A stretch of 31,121 bases of DNA from a virus, in IMG/VR virus record IMGVR_UViG_3300030117_000527, positions 1 through 31,121 of that record; one strand, given 5' to 3'. Each line of letters starts with the position of its first letter. Within the stretch, counting starts at the first letter, position 1. This document shows, in pieces, positions 16,753 through 23,024 of the stretch. The notes under the pieces were generated by a model. The model worked only from the letters and a program-made list of their open reading frames with translations. It did no database searches and had not been told where the DNA came from. The position numbers and the translations under genes are program-made.

Positions 16753-17196
16753 TTATACCTCATGCCATTCTTTGCCTTCAAATAGCAAAGCTTCTGCTTC
16801 TCTTCTTCTTACCAAGCCTTGTTTCACTTGCCCACCAGCTTTATTCCATCTTTTAATTTGATTGGGTACATCATTCCAATCTTTATTGTTAAGTCTTTGC
16901 AATAATGTGCTTGAAGATAAATTATTTGGCCCAAGGTTATAAACCCAAGATACTAAAGCATCGAACTCATTTTGTTTTAGATCAGAAGTAACCATATCAT
17001 TAACATATCCTTCGTATTCAGACATTTCTTCTACAAGTAAACTATCTGCTTCTTCTTGTGTAATTGTATCGCCTTCTTTTACACCTTTAGTTGAACCCCA
17101 TCCATATGTCCAAACTCCTGCTGCACATTTGTAAGCTTCTAGTTCACAACCTTCAAATTTTTTAATAAGAGATAAACCTTCTTGTGATATGTTCAT
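16753..17196 (-). CDS. GH24 lysozyme (endolysin) with E-C-T catalytic motif
   Basis: A 147-residue T4-type lysozyme that cleaves peptidoglycan glycan strands at lysis. The catalytic motif E-x8-C-x5-T is exact: Glu15 (KKFEG), Cys24 (YKCAAG) and Thr30 (VWTYGWGST). Many relatives have Asp in place of Cys24; P1 Lyz has Cys. A second Cys17 sits two residues after Glu15, as in P1 Lyz. There is no N-terminal signal or SAR segment, so it should wait in the cytoplasm for the holin. I chose the ATG at 17196 because AAAGGAG lies 8 bases upstream, inside the last codons of the holin gene. The frame extends 19 residues further, but that part overlaps the holin and looks non-native. Confidence 0.9.
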   Translation of the reverse strand: MNISQEGLSLIKKFEGCELEAYKCAAGVWTYGWGSTKGVKEGDTITQEEADSLLVEEMSEYEGYVNDMVTSDLKQNEFDALVSWVYNLGPNNLSSSTLLQRLNNKDWNDVPNQIKRWNKAGGQVKQGLVRRREAEALLFEGKEWHEV

Positions 17197-17197
17197 G

Positions 17198-17677
17198 TTA
17201 CTCTCCTTTGTCGCTGGTGTGAGATGCTCCGAAATAAAACGAAATAATTGCACTTGCTAACCCTCCAAGATAACCAAGCACTAAATTTATAAGTGCTTCA
17301 GAGTTTTGTTCAGGTGGTTGTAGTGTTACTAAAAATATATACCCTAAAAATCCACCTATGGTGAATAAACCTATAATACGAGCAGTCCAATCTTTGCTAA
17401 ATATACCTCTAGCGTTTTGTTTGTCAGCTACTTCTAGCTTAAATACATCTACATCAAGTTCTTTCATTTGTACTTCAAACTCTTGTTCAGCTTTTTTAAG
17501 TTCCATCATTTGTTCTGGAGTAGCGTTTTGTATCGCTTGTTGTACGGATTTTTGATCGTTAGATACACCTAACACTTCTGCTATTTTACCCATAGCCATT
17601 CCGCCTAATGGCCCACTAATTGCTGTGCCTAGTGTTGGTGCAACTGCACCTACTATATTTTTTAATAATCCTTTCAT
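17198..17677 (-). CDS. Holin of the GTA-type 3TM family
   Basis: A 159-residue protein matching the holin family first described for gene-transfer agent release. Residues about 8-37 are a Gly/Ala-rich hydrophobic segment, 45-90 a charged helical stretch, and two clear transmembrane helices follow at about 98-118 (IIGLFTIGGFLGYIFLVTL) and 127-151 (INLVLGYLGGLASAIISFYF), with the conserved KDWTAR just before the first. It would permeabilise the inner membrane to release the lysozyme, whose ribosome binding site is embedded in its 3' end. Its start overlaps the preceding small gene by 4 bases. Confidence 0.82.
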   Translation of the reverse strand: MKGLLKNIVGAVAPTLGTAISGPLGGMAMGKIAEVLGVSNDQKSVQQAIQNATPEQMMELKKAEQEFEVQMKELDVDVFKLEVADKQNARGIFSKDWTARIIGLFTIGGFLGYIFLVTLQPPEQNSEALINLVLGYLGGLASAIISFYFGASHTSDKGE

Positions 17678-17889
17678 ATTAATATGCTCGTTAAAACAGC
17701 TATACCAATTGCACCAAGAAACCCAAACACACCAAAGGTTGCGGCTTTCATAGTTGAATTAATATAGGTGATTTCTTGTTTTATATCAGAAAACTCATTG
17801 AATGCAGTTTTCCAACGCTCGTGTGATATTGTTTCTAACTTTGTAAGCCTTTCTGCAACATCGTTTACTGTCATTTTTTTATTAACCAT
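17674..17889 (-). CDS. XhlA-like small membrane protein, lysis accessory
   Basis: A 71-residue protein: residues about 8-45 form a charged amphipathic or coiled-coil helix (DVAERLTKLETISHERW), followed by one C-terminal transmembrane helix (about 48-70). This layout resembles XhlA-type lysis accessory proteins and other small holin partners. It overlaps the adenylate cyclase stop by 8 bases upstream and the holin start by 4 bases downstream, placing it at the head of the lysis cassette. No good ribosome site precedes either of the two possible Met starts, so it probably depends on coupled translation from the cyclase. Family assignment is tentative. Confidence 0.55.
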   Translation of the reverse strand: MVNKKMTVNDVAERLTKLETISHERWKTAFNEFSDIKQEITYINSTMKAATFGVFGFLGAIGIAVLTSILI

Positions 17890-19642
17890 ATTGTATAGTG
17901 TATATTTTAATTGGTTTTTCTTTACCTTTTACAAAAATACTATCAAGCTCTTTTAACATAATTTGATCGCTAAAGCTACTTGCACTGATAGTATCATAAC
18001 CTATAACAATATCTTCTCCAACATCCTTAGTTGAACTCTCTAGTCTTGCTGCAAGGTTTACTGCATCTCCAATAGCCGTATAATCAAATCTAGTTTCACT
18101 GCCCATATTCCCAATAACTGCATAACCGCTATTCACACCTATGCCTATTTCTACATCTAAATTAGCCATTTTTATTTTGTCTTGAATTTCCATAGCACAC
18201 AAAACTGCAGAATTTTCATGTCCTGGTGTATCCATGGGAGCGTTAAAAATAGCCATCATAGCATCACCTATATACTTATCTACCATACCATCATATCTTT
18301 TAACGGTGTCAGCTTGTATTGTAAGAGCTTTGTTCATAATTTCAGTAACTTCTTCTGGCTCTAGTCGTTCAGATAAAGCAGTAAATCCCCTTACATCTGT
18401 GAATAAAAATGTGCAGTATCTACGTTCACCACCTAATACTAAAGAACTAGGATCATCTTGTAATTTTTTAACTTGGCGTGGATCAAGGTAATGTTCAAAC
18501 TGTTTTTTAATCTGTTGACGTAATTTATATTGTTGTCTAAACCTTAAATAGAAAGCTATAGATCCTGAAATAAACTCTGATATAAGTGTCCAAGATACAT
18601 CTACTAACAAACCTTTGCTTATAAAGTAATATCCTAAACTACCAGTAGTAACCATTAACATGGTTGCAACAGTGATACCCCAAGTTATACCTAAATAATG
18701 AAGTGCAAACCAAACTAAACTAACAAATATAATAAACATCATTAGTTCAGCAGCCAATGACCAATCAGGAATGTATGGACTATCTTGTATTAATATCGAT
18801 TCAGCGAGTGCTGCTTGTATTTTATGTGGCTCTAGCAAGCCTACAGGTGTTGCTACTTGCGGCATTACTCCGTTTGCAGTTACACCTATAAATACAAACT
18901 TACCATTTACTTCCATTTCTTGTAAGTCGGTTTGTGGTGTATCTATCCAACTAATCCATTTACGGCCAAAGCTGTCTGTTTTAACTGGTGGTATTCCTCT
19001 TATTGATATTTCTGATATACCATTATCATTAGTTTTTATAATATAAGTTTTTACATTAAATAAAGCTTTATATATTTGTGTGCCAAAACTAGGTATCCAT
19101 TCATTTTCAGGGGTTTTTACTAAAAGAGGTATTCTTCTAACAAGTTGATCTACATCTGTGGGAGCAATCGCTAAACCTTGAAGTGTGTGATTGGATAAGA
19201 GAAGTAGGTTCTGCTTTACTCCCGTACTTATTATACCACCATTATCATCTCCAAGTACAACGGTTCCAGGAGATGCAGGGTAATTACCTTTCCCATCTTC
19301 AAACATAGCTATAACAGATGGTGCATACCTCAAAGATCTAGCGAAGTCTTCATCACCACCCATTCTGTCTGCTTGTGGAAAAGAGATAACCCAACCAACA
19401 CCTACTGCACCTTTACCTAATATTTGCAATTGTATTTCAGCTAATCTTTGTCTGGGTAAGGGCCAACCACCTTCACGCTCTACATCTTCTTCGGTTATAT
19501 TAAGTATTGTAAAGTTACCTGATTCTTCTGGTGTTTGTATAAAAGCATCAAAAGTTTTTAGTTTTAATATTTCTGTAGGCGTGCTTTGAAATAATAATGG
19601 TAAAGATAGCATTATAAGCACAGGTAATAATAGTCGTTTCAT
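17882..19642 (-). CDS. CHASE2-transmembrane class III adenylate cyclase
   Basis: A 586-residue receptor-type cyclase. A hydrophobic N-terminal segment (4-19) is followed by an extracytoplasmic CHASE2 sensor domain (about 28-290), three transmembrane helices (about 298-316, 320-340, 345-366) and a cytoplasmic class III cyclase domain (about 405-586). Catalytic residues are intact: metal-binding Asp416 (LFTDVRGFT) and Asp460 (DKYIGDAMM), adenine-selecting Lys456 and Thr522 (DYTAIGD), Asn529 and Arg533 (VNLAARLES). Lys/Thr points to ATP, hence cAMP. It follows the FecR gene with no gap and overlaps the lysis cassette by 8 bases. Stimulus and purpose in infection are unknown. Such a full receptor cyclase is very unusual for a phage. 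Confidence 0.93.
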   Translation of the reverse strand: MKRLLLPVLIMLSLPLLFQSTPTEILKLKTFDAFIQTPEESGNFTILNITEEDVEREGGWPLPRQRLAEIQLQILGKGAVGVGWVISFPQADRMGGDEDFARSLRYAPSVIAMFEDGKGNYPASPGTVVLGDDNGGIISTGVKQNLLLLSNHTLQGLAIAPTDVDQLVRRIPLLVKTPENEWIPSFGTQIYKALFNVKTYIIKTNDNGISEISIRGIPPVKTDSFGRKWISWIDTPQTDLQEMEVNGKFVFIGVTANGVMPQVATPVGLLEPHKIQAALAESILIQDSPYIPDWSLAAELMMFIIFVSLVWFALHYLGITWGITVATMLMVTTGSLGYYFISKGLLVDVSWTLISEFISGSIAFYLRFRQQYKLRQQIKKQFEHYLDPRQVKKLQDDPSSLVLGGERRYCTFLFTDVRGFTALSERLEPEEVTEIMNKALTIQADTVKRYDGMVDKYIGDAMMAIFNAPMDTPGHENSAVLCAMEIQDKIKMANLDVEIGIGVNSGYAVIGNMGSETRFDYTAIGDAVNLAARLESSTKDVGEDIVIGYDTISASSFSDQIMLKELDSIFVKGKEKPIKIYTIQYG

Positions 19643-20761
19643 TTAATCACTTTGAGTGATAGTAATAATGCTATCACTTCCCCCGTTAATTTTTATTGTA
19701 TTAGAAATACCATCTTGTATCAAAATAACTGTATATGCAGTACCGCCATCTAAATCTAACCTAACACTTTCACTTACCTCTCTACGCAAACTTACTACGT
19801 TTCCTGTAATTAAAGCTGTTATTTGTGTATCAGGATCTTTGCCAAGCATAGTTCCAGTTATTTGCGTGCTTGTAGCTTGTGCTAATACATCTTCTTCTTC
19901 AGCAATAGCTAAAGCATCTAAAACATTAAGCAGGTCTTCAAGGTAATTTACATCAAGATAATTTATATCTAATTCTGTAAACTCAAGACTGTCTTCTTTT
20001 AAATAGTCCTCTGCAAGATAATCTATATCAAGATCATTAAAATCTAACACGCTATCTGCTTTTGTAGTGGTGTTTTCTTCTTCTACTAGCACTTCTTCTT
20101 TAGGTGGTGTTACTATCAACATATTATCTATAACATCTAGTGTTAGATCTAAAATTACTGGTTTTGTTGGAGCTGACTCGAATACGCTTACTGTAGTCGC
20201 CTCGTATGGTTTATTAAGTAAAACAGTACCCATAGCAGTAACTACCTCTATTTCGCCACTAGAGAGCCCTAGAGCGTCTGGTAGCAATATTATAAGGCTA
20301 CGCCCTAGTTCATCAACTGTAGCAGTAAAATCAGTCCCACGTATTGCTATATTAGCTGTTGGTGTTTTAAGAGTTATGTTCTGTTTATCTATACGGTTAA
20401 GATTGCCTGTAATAAACCTAGCTGTACCAAGACCAAAGGTAAGAGCCATTTTTGCTTTACTTGGGTCTGGATCGTATATGTACTCGTCAATAAGTAGCTG
20501 ACTATGTTCAGTTAATTTAACTGTTGAGTCATCAAGAAATGTAATAGCCATGCGGCCATCTTTAGTTATAGCCTCATCATTACTTTGAATTGCAAACTTT
20601 AGATTTGCATCATAAGGTTTATCTCTTAAGATTTGGGCTGAACCATTTAGTTCAGAAATATCTCCTATATCAGCAGCTTGTGCTTGTACCTTGGTCGTTT
20701 TGAACGACACAAACAGTAGAAGCAGCAGTGCCAGAAATTGAAATGATCTTAAGCCAGTCAT
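19643..20761 (-). CDS. Secreted FecR-domain protein with acidic repeats
   Basis: A 372-residue exported protein. Residues 1-29 are a signal peptide (basic start, LALLLLLFVSF core, AQA before the cut). Residues about 35-195 contain a FecR-type domain, best seen at MALTFGLGTARFITG (105-119) and TPTANIAIRGTDFTATV (133-149). Residues about 236-290 are an acidic repeat built on LDINYL-like units (DIDYL, DINYL, DVNYL). The tail (about 350-370, SNTIKINGGSDSIITITQ) has curlin-like beta-strand spacing. In bacteria FecR domains often sit next to CHASE2 cyclases, as here with zero gap, suggesting it is the periplasmic partner of that sensor. The first 92 bases overlap the curlin-like gene in another frame. 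Confidence 0.85.
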   Translation of the reverse strand: MTGLRSFQFLALLLLLFVSFKTTKVQAQAADIGDISELNGSAQILRDKPYDANLKFAIQSNDEAITKDGRMAITFLDDSTVKLTEHSQLLIDEYIYDPDPSKAKMALTFGLGTARFITGNLNRIDKQNITLKTPTANIAIRGTDFTATVDELGRSLIILLPDALGLSSGEIEVVTAMGTVLLNKPYEATTVSVFESAPTKPVILDLTLDVIDNMLIVTPPKEEVLVEEENTTTKADSVLDFNDLDIDYLAEDYLKEDSLEFTELDINYLDVNYLEDLLNVLDALAIAEEEDVLAQATSTQITGTMLGKDPDTQITALITGNVVSLRREVSESVRLDLDGGTAYTVILIQDGISNTIKINGGSDSIITITQSD

Positions 20762-21404
20762 TATCTTGAGTGCTTAGTTGTTGGATATTAAAGGTTCTTG
20801 AGCCTCCTGTGTGGTCAAGATAGAAATATCCACCTGCACTAGCTGTTACTCCAGTCCCAGTATATGTAACTGTATTATCACTTCCATCTATATCCATAAA
20901 ATTGGTTGCTCCATCTATGTTTATATTTGAAGTAATAGTGTTGTTAGATCCTTGAATAATCCAATCTAAATCAAGTTGTGAAGCTAAAGCTGAAGTACCT
21001 TGATTTAAAGTAAAGGTGTTGCCGCTCCCTGTAACATCTACGTTTTGATTAGAACCATCTGAACTGTAAGTATCTGTAGGATCAACTTGTATGGTAAATG
21101 AATTAGTGCCGCCATCAAACTCATAAAAACCTGTAAAGTTATCAGCAAATATATCACCTAAAAATTTATTGGTTGCACCAATCATATTAATATCAAGTGT
21201 CATGCTGTTACCATCTAAATCAAAGGGAGTTAAATTGCCTGCAGAGCTATTTAACCCACCTATGATATTAGAAATACCTAGTTGTTCTAGGTCTATATTT
21301 GCTCCAGTACCAGATTGTTCTACATATATTTCATTATCAGCCGCGTATGTCGTCAACGCACTCATCATCACAATCAGGCTTATCAATTTTAATTTGTTCA
21401 TCAT
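20670..21404 (-). CDS. Secreted curlin-like beta-repeat protein
   Basis: A 244-residue protein with a signal peptide (KLKLISLIVMMSALTTYA, cut before ADNEIYV). The mature chain is acidic, rich in Gly, Ser, Asn, Thr and Asp, and has curlin-like repeats: EIYVEQSGTGANIDLEQLGISN at the mature N-terminus (written here as the pattern Q-x-G-x4-N-x5-Q-x-G-x2-N), then TGSGNTFTLNQG, IQGSNNTITSNI and IDGSDNTVTYTG. Two Cys lie in the last 13 residues. It directly follows csgG, so it is the likely cargo of that channel. It is the only gene of this block with a strong ribosome site (GAAGGAG), consistent with high output of a fibre subunit. True amyloid formation is unproven; a beta-helical adhesin is the alternative. 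Confidence 0.65.
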   Translation of the reverse strand: MMNKLKLISLIVMMSALTTYAADNEIYVEQSGTGANIDLEQLGISNIIGGLNSSAGNLTPFDLDGNSMTLDINMIGATNKFLGDIFADNFTGFYEFDGGTNSFTIQVDPTDTYSSDGSNQNVDVTGSGNTFTLNQGTSALASQLDLDWIIQGSNNTITSNINIDGATNFMDIDGSDNTVTYTGTGVTASAGGYFYLDHTGGSRTFNIQQLSTQDNDWLKIISISGTAASTVCVVQNDQGTSTSC

Positions 21405-22242
21405 TTAATTCTACTCCTTCGTTTTTGTTTTGTAAAACCCAAAATCCTTTTTCATATCCTGTTTCTACTATTTCTAATATACCACCCTCTATAGCTTTCA
21501 TTAAAGCTATGGTAGATGACTCGTTTCTTGCGTTACCCATTTCTACTTCTACTAGCTCGGTACCTGCCTCAATAAACCTAAATATATCCTCAGATTTTCC
21601 GTAGCTAAATATGGTTTTTTGGCTTAACACTTCTAGCAGGACTTCGCCTGTTGCAACAGAAACCATACGCAAACTTACAGTTATGTTGTCTTCTCGATAC
21701 ATCACACTTTTACCTATACCTAAATACCTAGCACCAGAACCCCCACTTTCTAAATTAGATTCATAAGAAATTACGGCACCTTCTATCAAAATACCAGCAA
21801 ATAAAAGTGGTCTAAGAGCTTTCTTTTTTTCATCTTCACTAGCAGTTTGTTCTCTAGCAGATCTTATAAGTTGTCGTTCTTTGGTTAAGTTATCTAAACC
21901 AACTCTTTCTACGACTCTAAAAAATTGACCATTACCTGCGTGTTTTAAAGCTCTTATTAATAATGCATTTGGCTGTTGGGTTATAGCTGTGCTAAACAGT
22001 GCAAACTCGCTGTTGCTTTTTCTTTGTCCTGTCTGATCTGTAAAGGCGGTTGGATATACAGCTACAACAGGACTTACCTGAGGTATAGGTACGTTTTTAA
22101 GTTCTTTAGATTGTAAATCTTGAATACTTACAACATTATGAGCTGAAAATCTATGTTCGTAAGTATCTTCTAACTGATCAAATGTAGAACAACTAGAAAG
22201 TAAAAGTACCAATAGGAATAACGATAGAAGTGATTGTACCAT
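21337..22242 (-). CDS. csgG: CsgG-family curli secretion channel lipoprotein
   Basis: A 301-residue, full-length CsgG homologue. Residues 1-17 form a lipoprotein signal ending LLSSC (lipidated Cys18, Ser at +2, compatible with outer-membrane sorting). Family blocks run in order: TDQTGQRK (68-75), LFSTAITQQPNALLIRALK (82-100), FFRVVERVGLDNLTKERQLIR (written as the 107-127 region), ILIEGAVISYESN (151-163), SGGSGARYLGIG (166-177), RMVSVATGEVL and SQKTIFSY...FRFIE, the last two forming beta-barrel hairpins in E. coli. In E. coli nine subunits form the outer-membrane channel for curlin. Constriction residues differ: Y51 and N55 of E. coli align with Ser78 and Leu82, while F56 is kept (Phe83). It overlaps both neighbours (50 and 68 bases). 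Confidence 0.93.
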   Translation of the reverse strand: MVQSLLSLFLLVLLLSSCSTFDQLEDTYEHRFSAHNVVSIQDLQSKELKNVPIPQVSPVVAVYPTAFTDQTGQRKSNSEFALFSTAITQQPNALLIRALKHAGNGQFFRVVERVGLDNLTKERQLIRSAREQTASEDEKKKALRPLLFAGILIEGAVISYESNLESGGSGARYLGIGKSVMYREDNITVSLRMVSVATGEVLLEVLSQKTIFSYGKSEDIFRFIEAGTELVEVEMGNARNESSTIALMKAIEGGILEIVETGYEKGFWVLQNKNEGVELNDEQIKIDKPDCDDECVDDIRG

Positions 22243-22693
22243 CTGACTCGGTTATTTTTAGGGTTAATGTTACACCATCACTTGTGTACTCGATAGTATT
22301 CCCCTCTAAAGTGATGACACCTTCGCTTTGCGGTGTTTCTCCGAATAAGTTATTAACTAACTGTCTTGATAGTTCTGCGTAAACTCTGGACTCAAGATTA
22401 CGCATAAACCTTGCAAGAGTAGAGTTTTCTTTTTCTCTTTTGATTTCATCTTGTAAGGCTTTAATTTCTTCTTTAAGTGTAAGTTTGCGGGTGTGTTCTT
22501 GGTTTTCTATGGTTAAGTAATGAGATGATGTTCCTACGCCATTAAAACTAGGCGACTTAAATTTATGTACTATTTGATCTGCTTTTATATTTATAGCTAT
22601 TATTCCTATAAACATAATTAAACCAAAAAACATTACACCAATTAGTATTCTAGTTTTTTCTGCTTCAGTTTCGTTAATCTTTTCTTTGGTCAT
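22193..22693 (-). CDS. csgF: CsgF-like curli assembly protein, membrane-anchored
   Basis: A 166-residue protein. Residues 1-15 are charged, 16-34 hydrophobic (ILIGVMFFGLIMFIGIIAI), then ADQIVHKFKSPSFNG (38-52) matches the CsgF segment FRNPxFGG that in E. coli plugs into the CsgG pore. A charged helix (about 71-95) is inserted, followed by LESRVYAELSRQLVNNLFG (100-118) and a beta region with EYTSDGVTLTLKITESDGT (135-153), both aligning in order with E. coli CsgF. The long n-region makes it ambiguous whether the hydrophobic part is a cleaved signal peptide or an anchor. I chose the ATG at 22693 (AAAGG nine bases upstream) over an in-frame TTG 18 bases earlier. It precedes csgG with a 50-base overlap. 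Confidence 0.8.
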   Translation of the reverse strand: MTKEKINETEAEKTRILIGVMFFGLIMFIGIIAINIKADQIVHKFKSPSFNGVGTSSHYLTIENQEHTRKLTLKEEIKALQDEIKREKENSTLARFMRNLESRVYAELSRQLVNNLFGETPQSEGVITLEGNTIEYTSDGVTLTLKITESDGTITSIVIPIGTFTF

Positions 22694-23024
22694 CTCTATT
22701 CGCCTTTGCAATTTTATTGCTATCTATAAGTTGTGGTACGCCAAGAATAGTTTTAACTAAAGTATCTTGTCTTATAATTTCGTTATCTAAACTTCGTACT
22801 CTATCTATTAATGCTACCAAAATACCATGTTGTGAATCAAGTTTTGTACCAAGTCGTTCTTCTATAGCAGCTATTTGTGCTTCTACTTTTTCATCAACAG
22901 TATCAAGTTTAGTCTCCATACCGTCAACAATACGCATAATTAGTTTGTAAATAAACCAACCAAGCCCTAATGCTGCTGCAATAGGGAATCCAACTTCTTG
23001 AATTAAAGTTACGGCTGATTCCAT
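22674..23024 (-). CDS. Small membrane protein with coiled coil (holin-like layout)
   Basis: A 116-residue protein: an N-terminal transmembrane helix (about 8-32, VGFPIAAALGLGWFIYKLIM) followed by a long coiled-coil-like region with heptad spacing (about 34-90, e.g. LDTVDEKVEAQIAAIEERL) and a polar end. This resembles BhlA/UviB-type holin-like proteins and other small phage membrane proteins, but the match is by layout only. Its start shares a base with the thermonuclease stop and its end overlaps the csgF start by 20 bases, so it is translated together with the secretion module and could be part of it or of lysis. Confidence 0.5.
   Translation of the reverse strand: MESAVTLIQEVGFPIAAALGLGWFIYKLIMRIVDGMETKLDTVDEKVEAQIAAIEERLGTKLDSQHGILVALIDRVRSLDNEIIRQDTLVKTILGVPQLIDSNKIAKANRDDQRKD

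Follow-up and report, generated by a model that had tools for sequence, protein, structure and literature searches.

The CsgG protein encoded in the window (the whole 31,121-nucleotide stretch analyzed, from a marine phage, IMG/VR record IMGVR_UViG_3300030117_000527) differed from E. coli CsgG at two of the three residues that form the pore constriction, and one of these changes, a hydrophobic residue in place of Asn55, was found throughout the sampled phage group of the window and in none of the sampled bacterial CsgG. The initial annotation, which described an altered and perhaps wider pore suited to a different cargo or to a leak, was partly supported: the observation was real with a corrected alignment and one ring was chemically unlike that of sampled bacteria, while the suggestions of greater width and of a leak were unsupported. 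Probably, on the evidence of sequence and gene order, CsgG together with CsgF serves as a secretion pore for the curlin-like protein that is encoded beside it.

The gene, strand, and coordinates of csgG (Table 1) had been given correctly in the initial annotation, as had the identity of its product. A single open reading frame encodes the 301-aa protein, which matched PF03783 at an E of 1.3e-45 (155.8 bits, cut-off 20.8). The closest solved relatives were E. coli CsgG chains (phmmer, E about 2e-48, about 41% identity), and the predicted model had the CsgG fold, with top Foldseek matches to 6l7c, 6l7a, 6si7, and 4uv3 (E to 8e-22, 40-42% identity for the best entries) and a Z of 17-19 over 191-228 residues against solved CsgG in a second aligner (VIA). 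The barrel hairpins were conserved in the alignments to E. coli CsgG, as previously described. By the lipobox rule, Cys18 in LLLSSC, invariant across a 53-row alignment, is predicted to be the acylated cysteine of a lipoprotein signal. The enterobacterial CsgG equivalog model (NCBIfam PRK15184) scored 184.2 bits, below its cut-off of 505; judged by these profiles, the protein belongs to CsgG but not to its enterobacterial type. The last 68 bases of csgG (21337-21404) are also the first 68 of the curlin-like gene, and this shared DNA encodes both the C-terminal tail of CsgG and the signal peptide of the putative cargo.

Table 1. Features of the curli-type module and neighboring genes in the window (positions are those of the window).
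Feature	Position	Strand	Remarks
Small membrane/coiled-coil protein, 116 aa, upstream of csgF	22674..23024	(-)	Position of the "histidine kinase" in Wittmers 2022
csgF	22193..22693	(-)	ATG start (listed TTG start at 22711); PF10614
csgG, outer-membrane curli secretion pore subunit	21337..22242	(-)	301 aa; PF03783; CsgG fold; Cys18 lipoprotein signal (predicted)
Constriction loop of CsgG, residues 76-83, SNSEFALF	21994..22017	(-)	E. coli equivalent PYPASNF, residues 50-56
Curlin-like protein, predicted to be secreted, putative cargo	20670..21404	(-)	Signal peptide, then all-beta repeats
FecR-domain protein of module	19643..20761	(-)	PF04773, 2.3e-09
CHASE2-adenylate/guanylate cyclase of module	17882..19642	(-)	PF05226, 3.5e-28; PF00211, 1.1e-20
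159-aa protein, two hydrophobic stretches, directly before endolysin	17198-17677		PHROG 1544
Endolysin, separate lysis gene	16753..17253	(-)	Phage_lysozyme, 3.1e-48; PHROG 7 endolysin, 1e-62

In E. coli, Tyr51, Asn55, and Phe56 (mature numbering; PMC6957492) were reported to form three rings stacked at the narrowest part of the pore; in full numbering these are Tyr66, Asn70, and Phe71 (PMC7304575). The conserved Lys75 and Ser84 enclose eight residues (SNSEFALF) in the phage protein and seven (PYPASNF) in E. coli, and this difference of one residue requires one gap in the alignment. Both phmmer against the solved E. coli chains and MAFFT over all rows placed Tyr51 opposite Asn77, Asn55 opposite Leu82, and Phe56 opposite Phe83. 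Wherever a single gap is set, Tyr51 falls opposite Asn or Ser and Asn55 opposite Ala or Leu, so the claim that two of the three key residues are altered holds under every such placement, and the E. coli triad is absent from phage CsgG, which has Asn77 (or Ser78), Leu82, and Phe83. Residues 78, 82, and 83 were indeed Ser, Leu, and Phe, and the correspondences proposed for Leu82 and Phe83 stood, whereas pairing Tyr51 with Ser78 is obtained only under a gap placement other than that chosen by the aligners. The earlier account of the loop thus named the altered residues correctly but overlooked the extra residue and Phe80. An identical loop with its following residues occurred in 146 of 159 related loci among the matches listed (some contigs fetched twice), and its composition is therefore not due to chance. 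Residues 74-84 had a pLDDT below 50 in the predicted model, so no pore diameter was obtainable from it.

The constriction columns were compared across 97 non-redundant podo-type, 63 myo-type, and 123 non-redundant bacterial CsgG, where podo-type refers to contigs near the window and myo-type to contigs near HTVC008M; these labels follow the query by which a contig was fetched, not taxonomy. The bacterial set excludes, on account of their phage-type module, L085, L086, and L087 (bacterial MAG records) as well as L168-L170, and L177 and L182 were dropped at scores below 150 bits; the bacterial group of an earlier alignment comprised 128 rows, with L085-L087 still inside. Viral scans covered the best 80 of 265, the best 80 of 586, and the best 80 of 194 matches, the genome-contig scan 80 of 193 relatives, and the genome samples the best 30 of 38 and the best 20 of 22 matches. 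Because the scan patterns touch the start of the loop, the 47 genome-sample rows were tallied apart. CsgG was absent at an E of 1e-20 from 24 of 29 class-sample loci, and loci L409-L411 stood outside the counts. L085 (Maricaulis MAG), L086 (Flavobacteriaceae MAG), and L087 (Rhodobacteraceae bin) are contigs with a phage-type curli module; L085, on which a phage lysozyme and a virion-protein gene were found as well, is a phage contig in a Maricaulis MAG, and L168 is a 3-kb contig that may not be viral.

Among the matches listed, the E. coli triad was present in 45 of the 123 bacterial CsgG, all with the enterobacterial loop KPYPASNF, and absent from the other 78; every sampled CsgG lacking the enterobacterial loop also lacked the triad. 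The triad was found in 5 of the 47 genome-sample rows (best-scoring loci only). Residues in the Tyr51 column of the listed bacterial matches were Ser (46), Tyr (45), Asn (10), Ala (7), Thr (5), Gln (4), Ile (3), Val (2), and Lys (1), with Ser or Asn in 56 of the 123 rows, and the longer loop was seen in 35 of the 76 rows from scans and in 28 of the 47 from genome samples. As aligned here, a missing Tyr51 and a longer loop are ordinary among bacteria, and the triad is an enterobacterial feature, not a rule of the family; a misleading hint of a leak function is thereby taken away.

The Asn55 column gave a different result. In the 123 bacterial rows listed it held Asn (53), Thr (41), Ser (19), Glu (6), Asp (3), or Arg (1), and a hydrophobic residue in none, versus all 97 of the listed podo-type rows (Leu in 96, Met in 1); the 63 listed myo-type rows all had Gln. 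The Phe56 column was Phe in 65 of the bacterial matches listed, Leu in 36, Tyr in 11, Trp in 8, and Ile in 3. Phe80 was present in all 160 phage rows, and the bacterial matches listed had Phe there in 3 of 123 rows and Tyr in 6 more. Leu82 is the unusual residue by this alignment, with a hydrophobic side chain at the Asn55 column peculiar to the phage group of the window among the matches listed. A Ser/Leu pair common in bacterial CsgG would have made the altered constriction unremarkable, and only the Ser part of that pair proved common, since just 45 of the 123 bacterial rows had Tyr and 56 had Ser or Asn, while none had Leu at the Asn55 column. The pore can accordingly be called chemically different at the Asn55 ring but not at Tyr51, where the change is ordinary. 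The proposal that the altered residues mark a special phage pore was rejected for Tyr51, where bacteria often have Ser, Asn, or other residues, and kept for the replacement of Asn55 by Leu. Text searches of the literature, covering articles without their supplements, recognized no comparison of phage CsgG constriction residues with those of other CsgG.

In a 93-row tree, all 22 phage-type rows formed one clade (support 100/99), with the window, its relatives, L085, and L168 on one side and HTVC008M, Melnitz, and their kin on the other. The nearest outgroups of the core podo-type rows, L085 and L168, had Ser at the Asn55 column, indicating that Leu82 is derived, and a hydrophobic residue at column 82 was confined on the tree to the core podo-type rows. 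The simplest account is that Leu82 was gained once, at a later point, in the lineage leading to the window. Among 107 distinct podo-type sequences, the amino-acid pair difference was 0.0023 in the core loop versus 0.135 in residues 52-271 outside 74-89, and the synonymous difference among the 107 distinct nucleotide sequences was 0.345 in the core loop versus 0.389 elsewhere; the loop ranked 19th most conserved of 212 eight-residue windows. Because the amino-acid difference was tiny while the synonymous difference was similar, a working loop has been retained. The corresponding amino-acid values were 0 versus 0.0635 in enterobacterial-type CsgG and 0.2156 versus 0.1912 in myo-type CsgG, in which residues 76 and 80-83 were invariant and 77-79 variable. 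These comparisons indicate that the podo-type loop is under purifying selection, which does not specify the purpose selected for, and that the constriction loop differs between lineages and is largely fixed within them.

CsgF matched PF10614 at 3.8e-15 over profile positions 6-132 of 132, and its layout ran from a membrane or signal helix, through the CsgG-binding peptide with PSFNGVGTSSHYLTIE, to the remainder of CsgF. E. coli CsgF was reported to add a second ring to the pore at Asn17 (PMC6957492, PMC7304575). As phmmer of CsgF against solved chains gave nothing reliable, the equivalence of residue 17 was taken from the ungapped peptide after P-x-F. Among the matches listed, residue 17 was Thr in all 149 motif-bearing podo-type rows (the motif was unmatched in 5 of 154) and Tyr in 78 of 79 myo-type rows, with Gln in Melnitz; enterobacteria have Asn and alphaproteobacteria mostly Phe. 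Both constriction rings, so aligned, differ from those of E. coli, and both vary among bacteria. N28, G32, and N37, reported as invariant in 35 bacterial CsgF (PMC12311626), were missing from podo-type phage CsgF. The window group pairs Leu-Phe in CsgG with Thr in CsgF, and the sister phage group pairs Gln-Leu with Tyr. Across the 81 of 93 tree rows readable at both CsgG residue 56 and CsgF residue 17, the combinations were aromatic/small in 18, aliphatic/large in 38, aromatic/large in 21, and aliphatic/small in 4; ring chemistry at the two positions tends to alternate between lineages, an aromatic residue at one constriction going with a small residue at the other, with exceptions. Compensation between these residues is suggestive and is not claimed here, given few deep branches, a single split in the phages, and exceptions including Melnitz.

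The minus-strand order of the module was small membrane protein, CsgF, CsgG, curlin-like protein, FecR-domain protein, CHASE2-cyclase, 159-aa protein, and endolysin. By the analysts' own flank rule and homology search, in which some contigs were fetched twice, the podo-type partners among the matches listed were present wherever the flank sufficed for CsgF (138/138), the curlin-like gene (147/147), FecR (136/136), and the cyclase (120/120), and an endolysin relative was found in 49 of 52; for the myo-type matches listed the counts were CsgF 78/78, curlin-like 61/61, FecR 48/48, cyclase 23/24, and endolysin 0/22. Of the loci listed, 138 of the 159 podo-type and 78 of the 82 myo-type had a relative of the small membrane protein, and profile searches matched the window protein to no kinase family. 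The 159-aa protein is a holin candidate by position only. No match to CsgE was found in any of three records, namely the window (possibly a fragment), HTVC008M, and Melnitz.

The curlin-like protein of the window scored 14.1-14.6 bits against PF07012, below the cut-off of 20.7, which its relatives in HTVC008M and Melnitz exceeded; the HTVC008M relative is annotated CsgB. Its model was all-beta (pLDDT 80.7), and Foldseek against solved structures gave no match at an E of 0.001 or better (best E 0.12). In most myo-type rows, the putative cargo was 22-28% identical to its podo-type counterpart. The hydrophobic part of the CsgA-binding crevice in E. coli CsgG was described as I121, L172, L236, and W237 (PMC6957492). 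At these positions, the 159 loci among the matches listed had W in 158, L in 159, I or V in 159, and F or Y in 158; the polar part (T31, G32, D238) was not retained in phage CsgG. Such a pattern would fit a related but different cargo N-terminus.

In the secretion reading, which we consider probable, CsgG and the adjacent CsgF would assemble in the outer membrane of the infected cell into a pore with two constrictions, through which the curlin-like protein would be exported. The phage ancestor probably already had a loop unlike the enterobacterial one, with the lineage of the window later gaining Leu where bacteria keep a polar residue. The identities of CsgG and CsgF, the CsgG fold, the conserved gene order, the single phage-type clade, and the purifying selection on the loop were all observed, and secretion is favored because CsgG never stands without CsgF and the curlin-like gene where the flank suffices and because the hydrophobic crevice residues stay hydrophobic. 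Counting against it are the lost polar crevice residues, a cargo below the curlin cut-off and with no significant structural match, a CsgF without N28, G32, and N37, the failure to find CsgE, and the reported absence of clumping in Melnitz-infected cells (PMC9004378). The different cargo raised in the initial annotation is possible, the curlin-like gene lying directly downstream of csgG in 147 of 147 podo-type loci with enough flank among the matches listed. The wider pore suggested there found no support, as Leu replaces Asn, Phe is added, and the loop was modeled at low pLDDT.

Whether the loop itself was tuned to the phage cargo, with Leu82, Phe83, and Phe80 making a more hydrophobic passage by adaptation and not by neutral lineage drift, is a separate matter, and such tuning is possible but doubtful. 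The hydrophobic column 82 (97/97 phage and 0/123 bacterial rows among the matches listed), the derived state of Leu82 in core podo-type rows with Ser in L085 and L168, the strong purifying selection on the loop, and the different polar cargo-binding residues all point toward it. However, purifying selection was equally seen in enterobacterial-type CsgG (0 vs. 0.0635) and so is no proof of adaptation to a new cargo; Leu82 was gained once on the tree, which gives the adaptive reading no replication, and the myo-type phages, with a related cargo, have Gln. An unlikely elaboration is that the pore was re-patterned at both constrictions, with Leu82 and Phe83, perhaps with Phe80, forming a hydrophobic gate that would admit an unfolded chain but keep out water and ions. 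If true, CsgE would be dispensable, and the pore would be the opposite of a leak.

A pinholin-like pore that leaks or sets the time of lysis, as proposed by Buchholz et al. 2022 (PMC9004378) and entertained in the initial annotation, is very improbable. Since no CsgE plug was found in the three records, the pore could stand open, and the module lies shortly before the endolysin gene in the window, with an endolysin relative in 49 of 52 podo-type loci among the matches listed. However, CsgF and a curlin-like gene are always found with CsgG where the flank allows, the endolysin is encoded separately, and no residue change indicates a wider pore. The lipoprotein signal of CsgG indicates the outer membrane, whereas pinholins act in the inner membrane (PMC9004378). 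The Melnitz argument also derived partly from absent csgA and csgB, and that record has two curlin-repeat proteins over the cut-off. Least probable of all is that the infected cell takes up nutrients or cofactors through the pore, an idea raised in PMC7029224 and PMC9599517; the FecR-domain gene within the module might hint at uptake, but CsgF and the invariably present curlin-like gene would be left unexplained.

The phage-only Leu ring together with the changed CsgF ring represents a defined and testable variant of the pore. The CsgG-CsgF complex is the pore used in a major nanopore-sequencing technology.

Phage-encoded curli genes were reported by Wittmers et al. 2022 to be widespread in the ocean; the module was described there from myoviruses as well as from HTVC023P-type podoviruses, as lacking CsgE and having an affinity to alphaproteobacteria (PMC9599517). 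Zaragoza-Solas et al. 2020 proposed sibling capture or uptake (PMC7029224), and for Melnitz a role like that of a pinholin or secretin was put forward by Buchholz et al. 2022, whose reasons included the presumed lack of csgA and csgB and a modeled CsgF unlike that of E. coli (PMC9004378). The Melnitz record (MZ577097.1) has two curlin-repeat genes near csgG (L083:5734-6453 and L083:7512-8528), and both proteins pass the PF07012 cut-off, although the 2022 paper reports csgA and csgB as lacking; these repeats weaken one main argument for a lysis role there. A 1.5-kb record of Salmonella phage S.Kent 1-2-1 (L084, OR851715.1) was rejected as a phage CsgG, as it holds enterobacterial csgF/csgG and is likely a host contaminant.

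E. coli CsgG (4uv3, 6l7a, 6si7, 7brm) shares its fold and barrel hairpins with the window protein but has a loop one residue shorter, Tyr51, Asn55, and Phe56, and Asn at CsgF residue 17. Alphaproteobacterial CsgG (Sphingomonas, Hyphomonas, Erythrobacter) resembles it in the eight-residue loop and in Ser at the Tyr51 column, and differs in having mostly Thr at the Asn55 column, Leu at the Phe56 column, and Phe at CsgF residue 17. HTVC008M and Melnitz CsgG (48% and 44% identity to that of the window) share the clade, the module, the eight-residue loop, and Phe80; unlike the window, their loops (KPSTKFSQL and KPSQRFSQL) have Gln at the Asn55 column and Leu at the Phe56 column, and CsgF residue 17 is Tyr in HTVC008M and Gln in Melnitz versus Thr in the window. 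The HTVC023P-type T8SS module has the same order as the window, from small membrane protein through CsgF, CsgG, curlin-like protein, and FecR to cyclase, again with CsgE not found, and a portal-adaptor-type protein (39.6%) indicates kinship of the window with HTVC023P. The second curlin-like gene between FecR and cyclase in that module is absent from the window, and the two virion proteins of the window that were tested shared 33-45% identity with the best-matching annotated phage proteins. The system in the window is one more example of the pelagiphage type VIII secretion module already in print.
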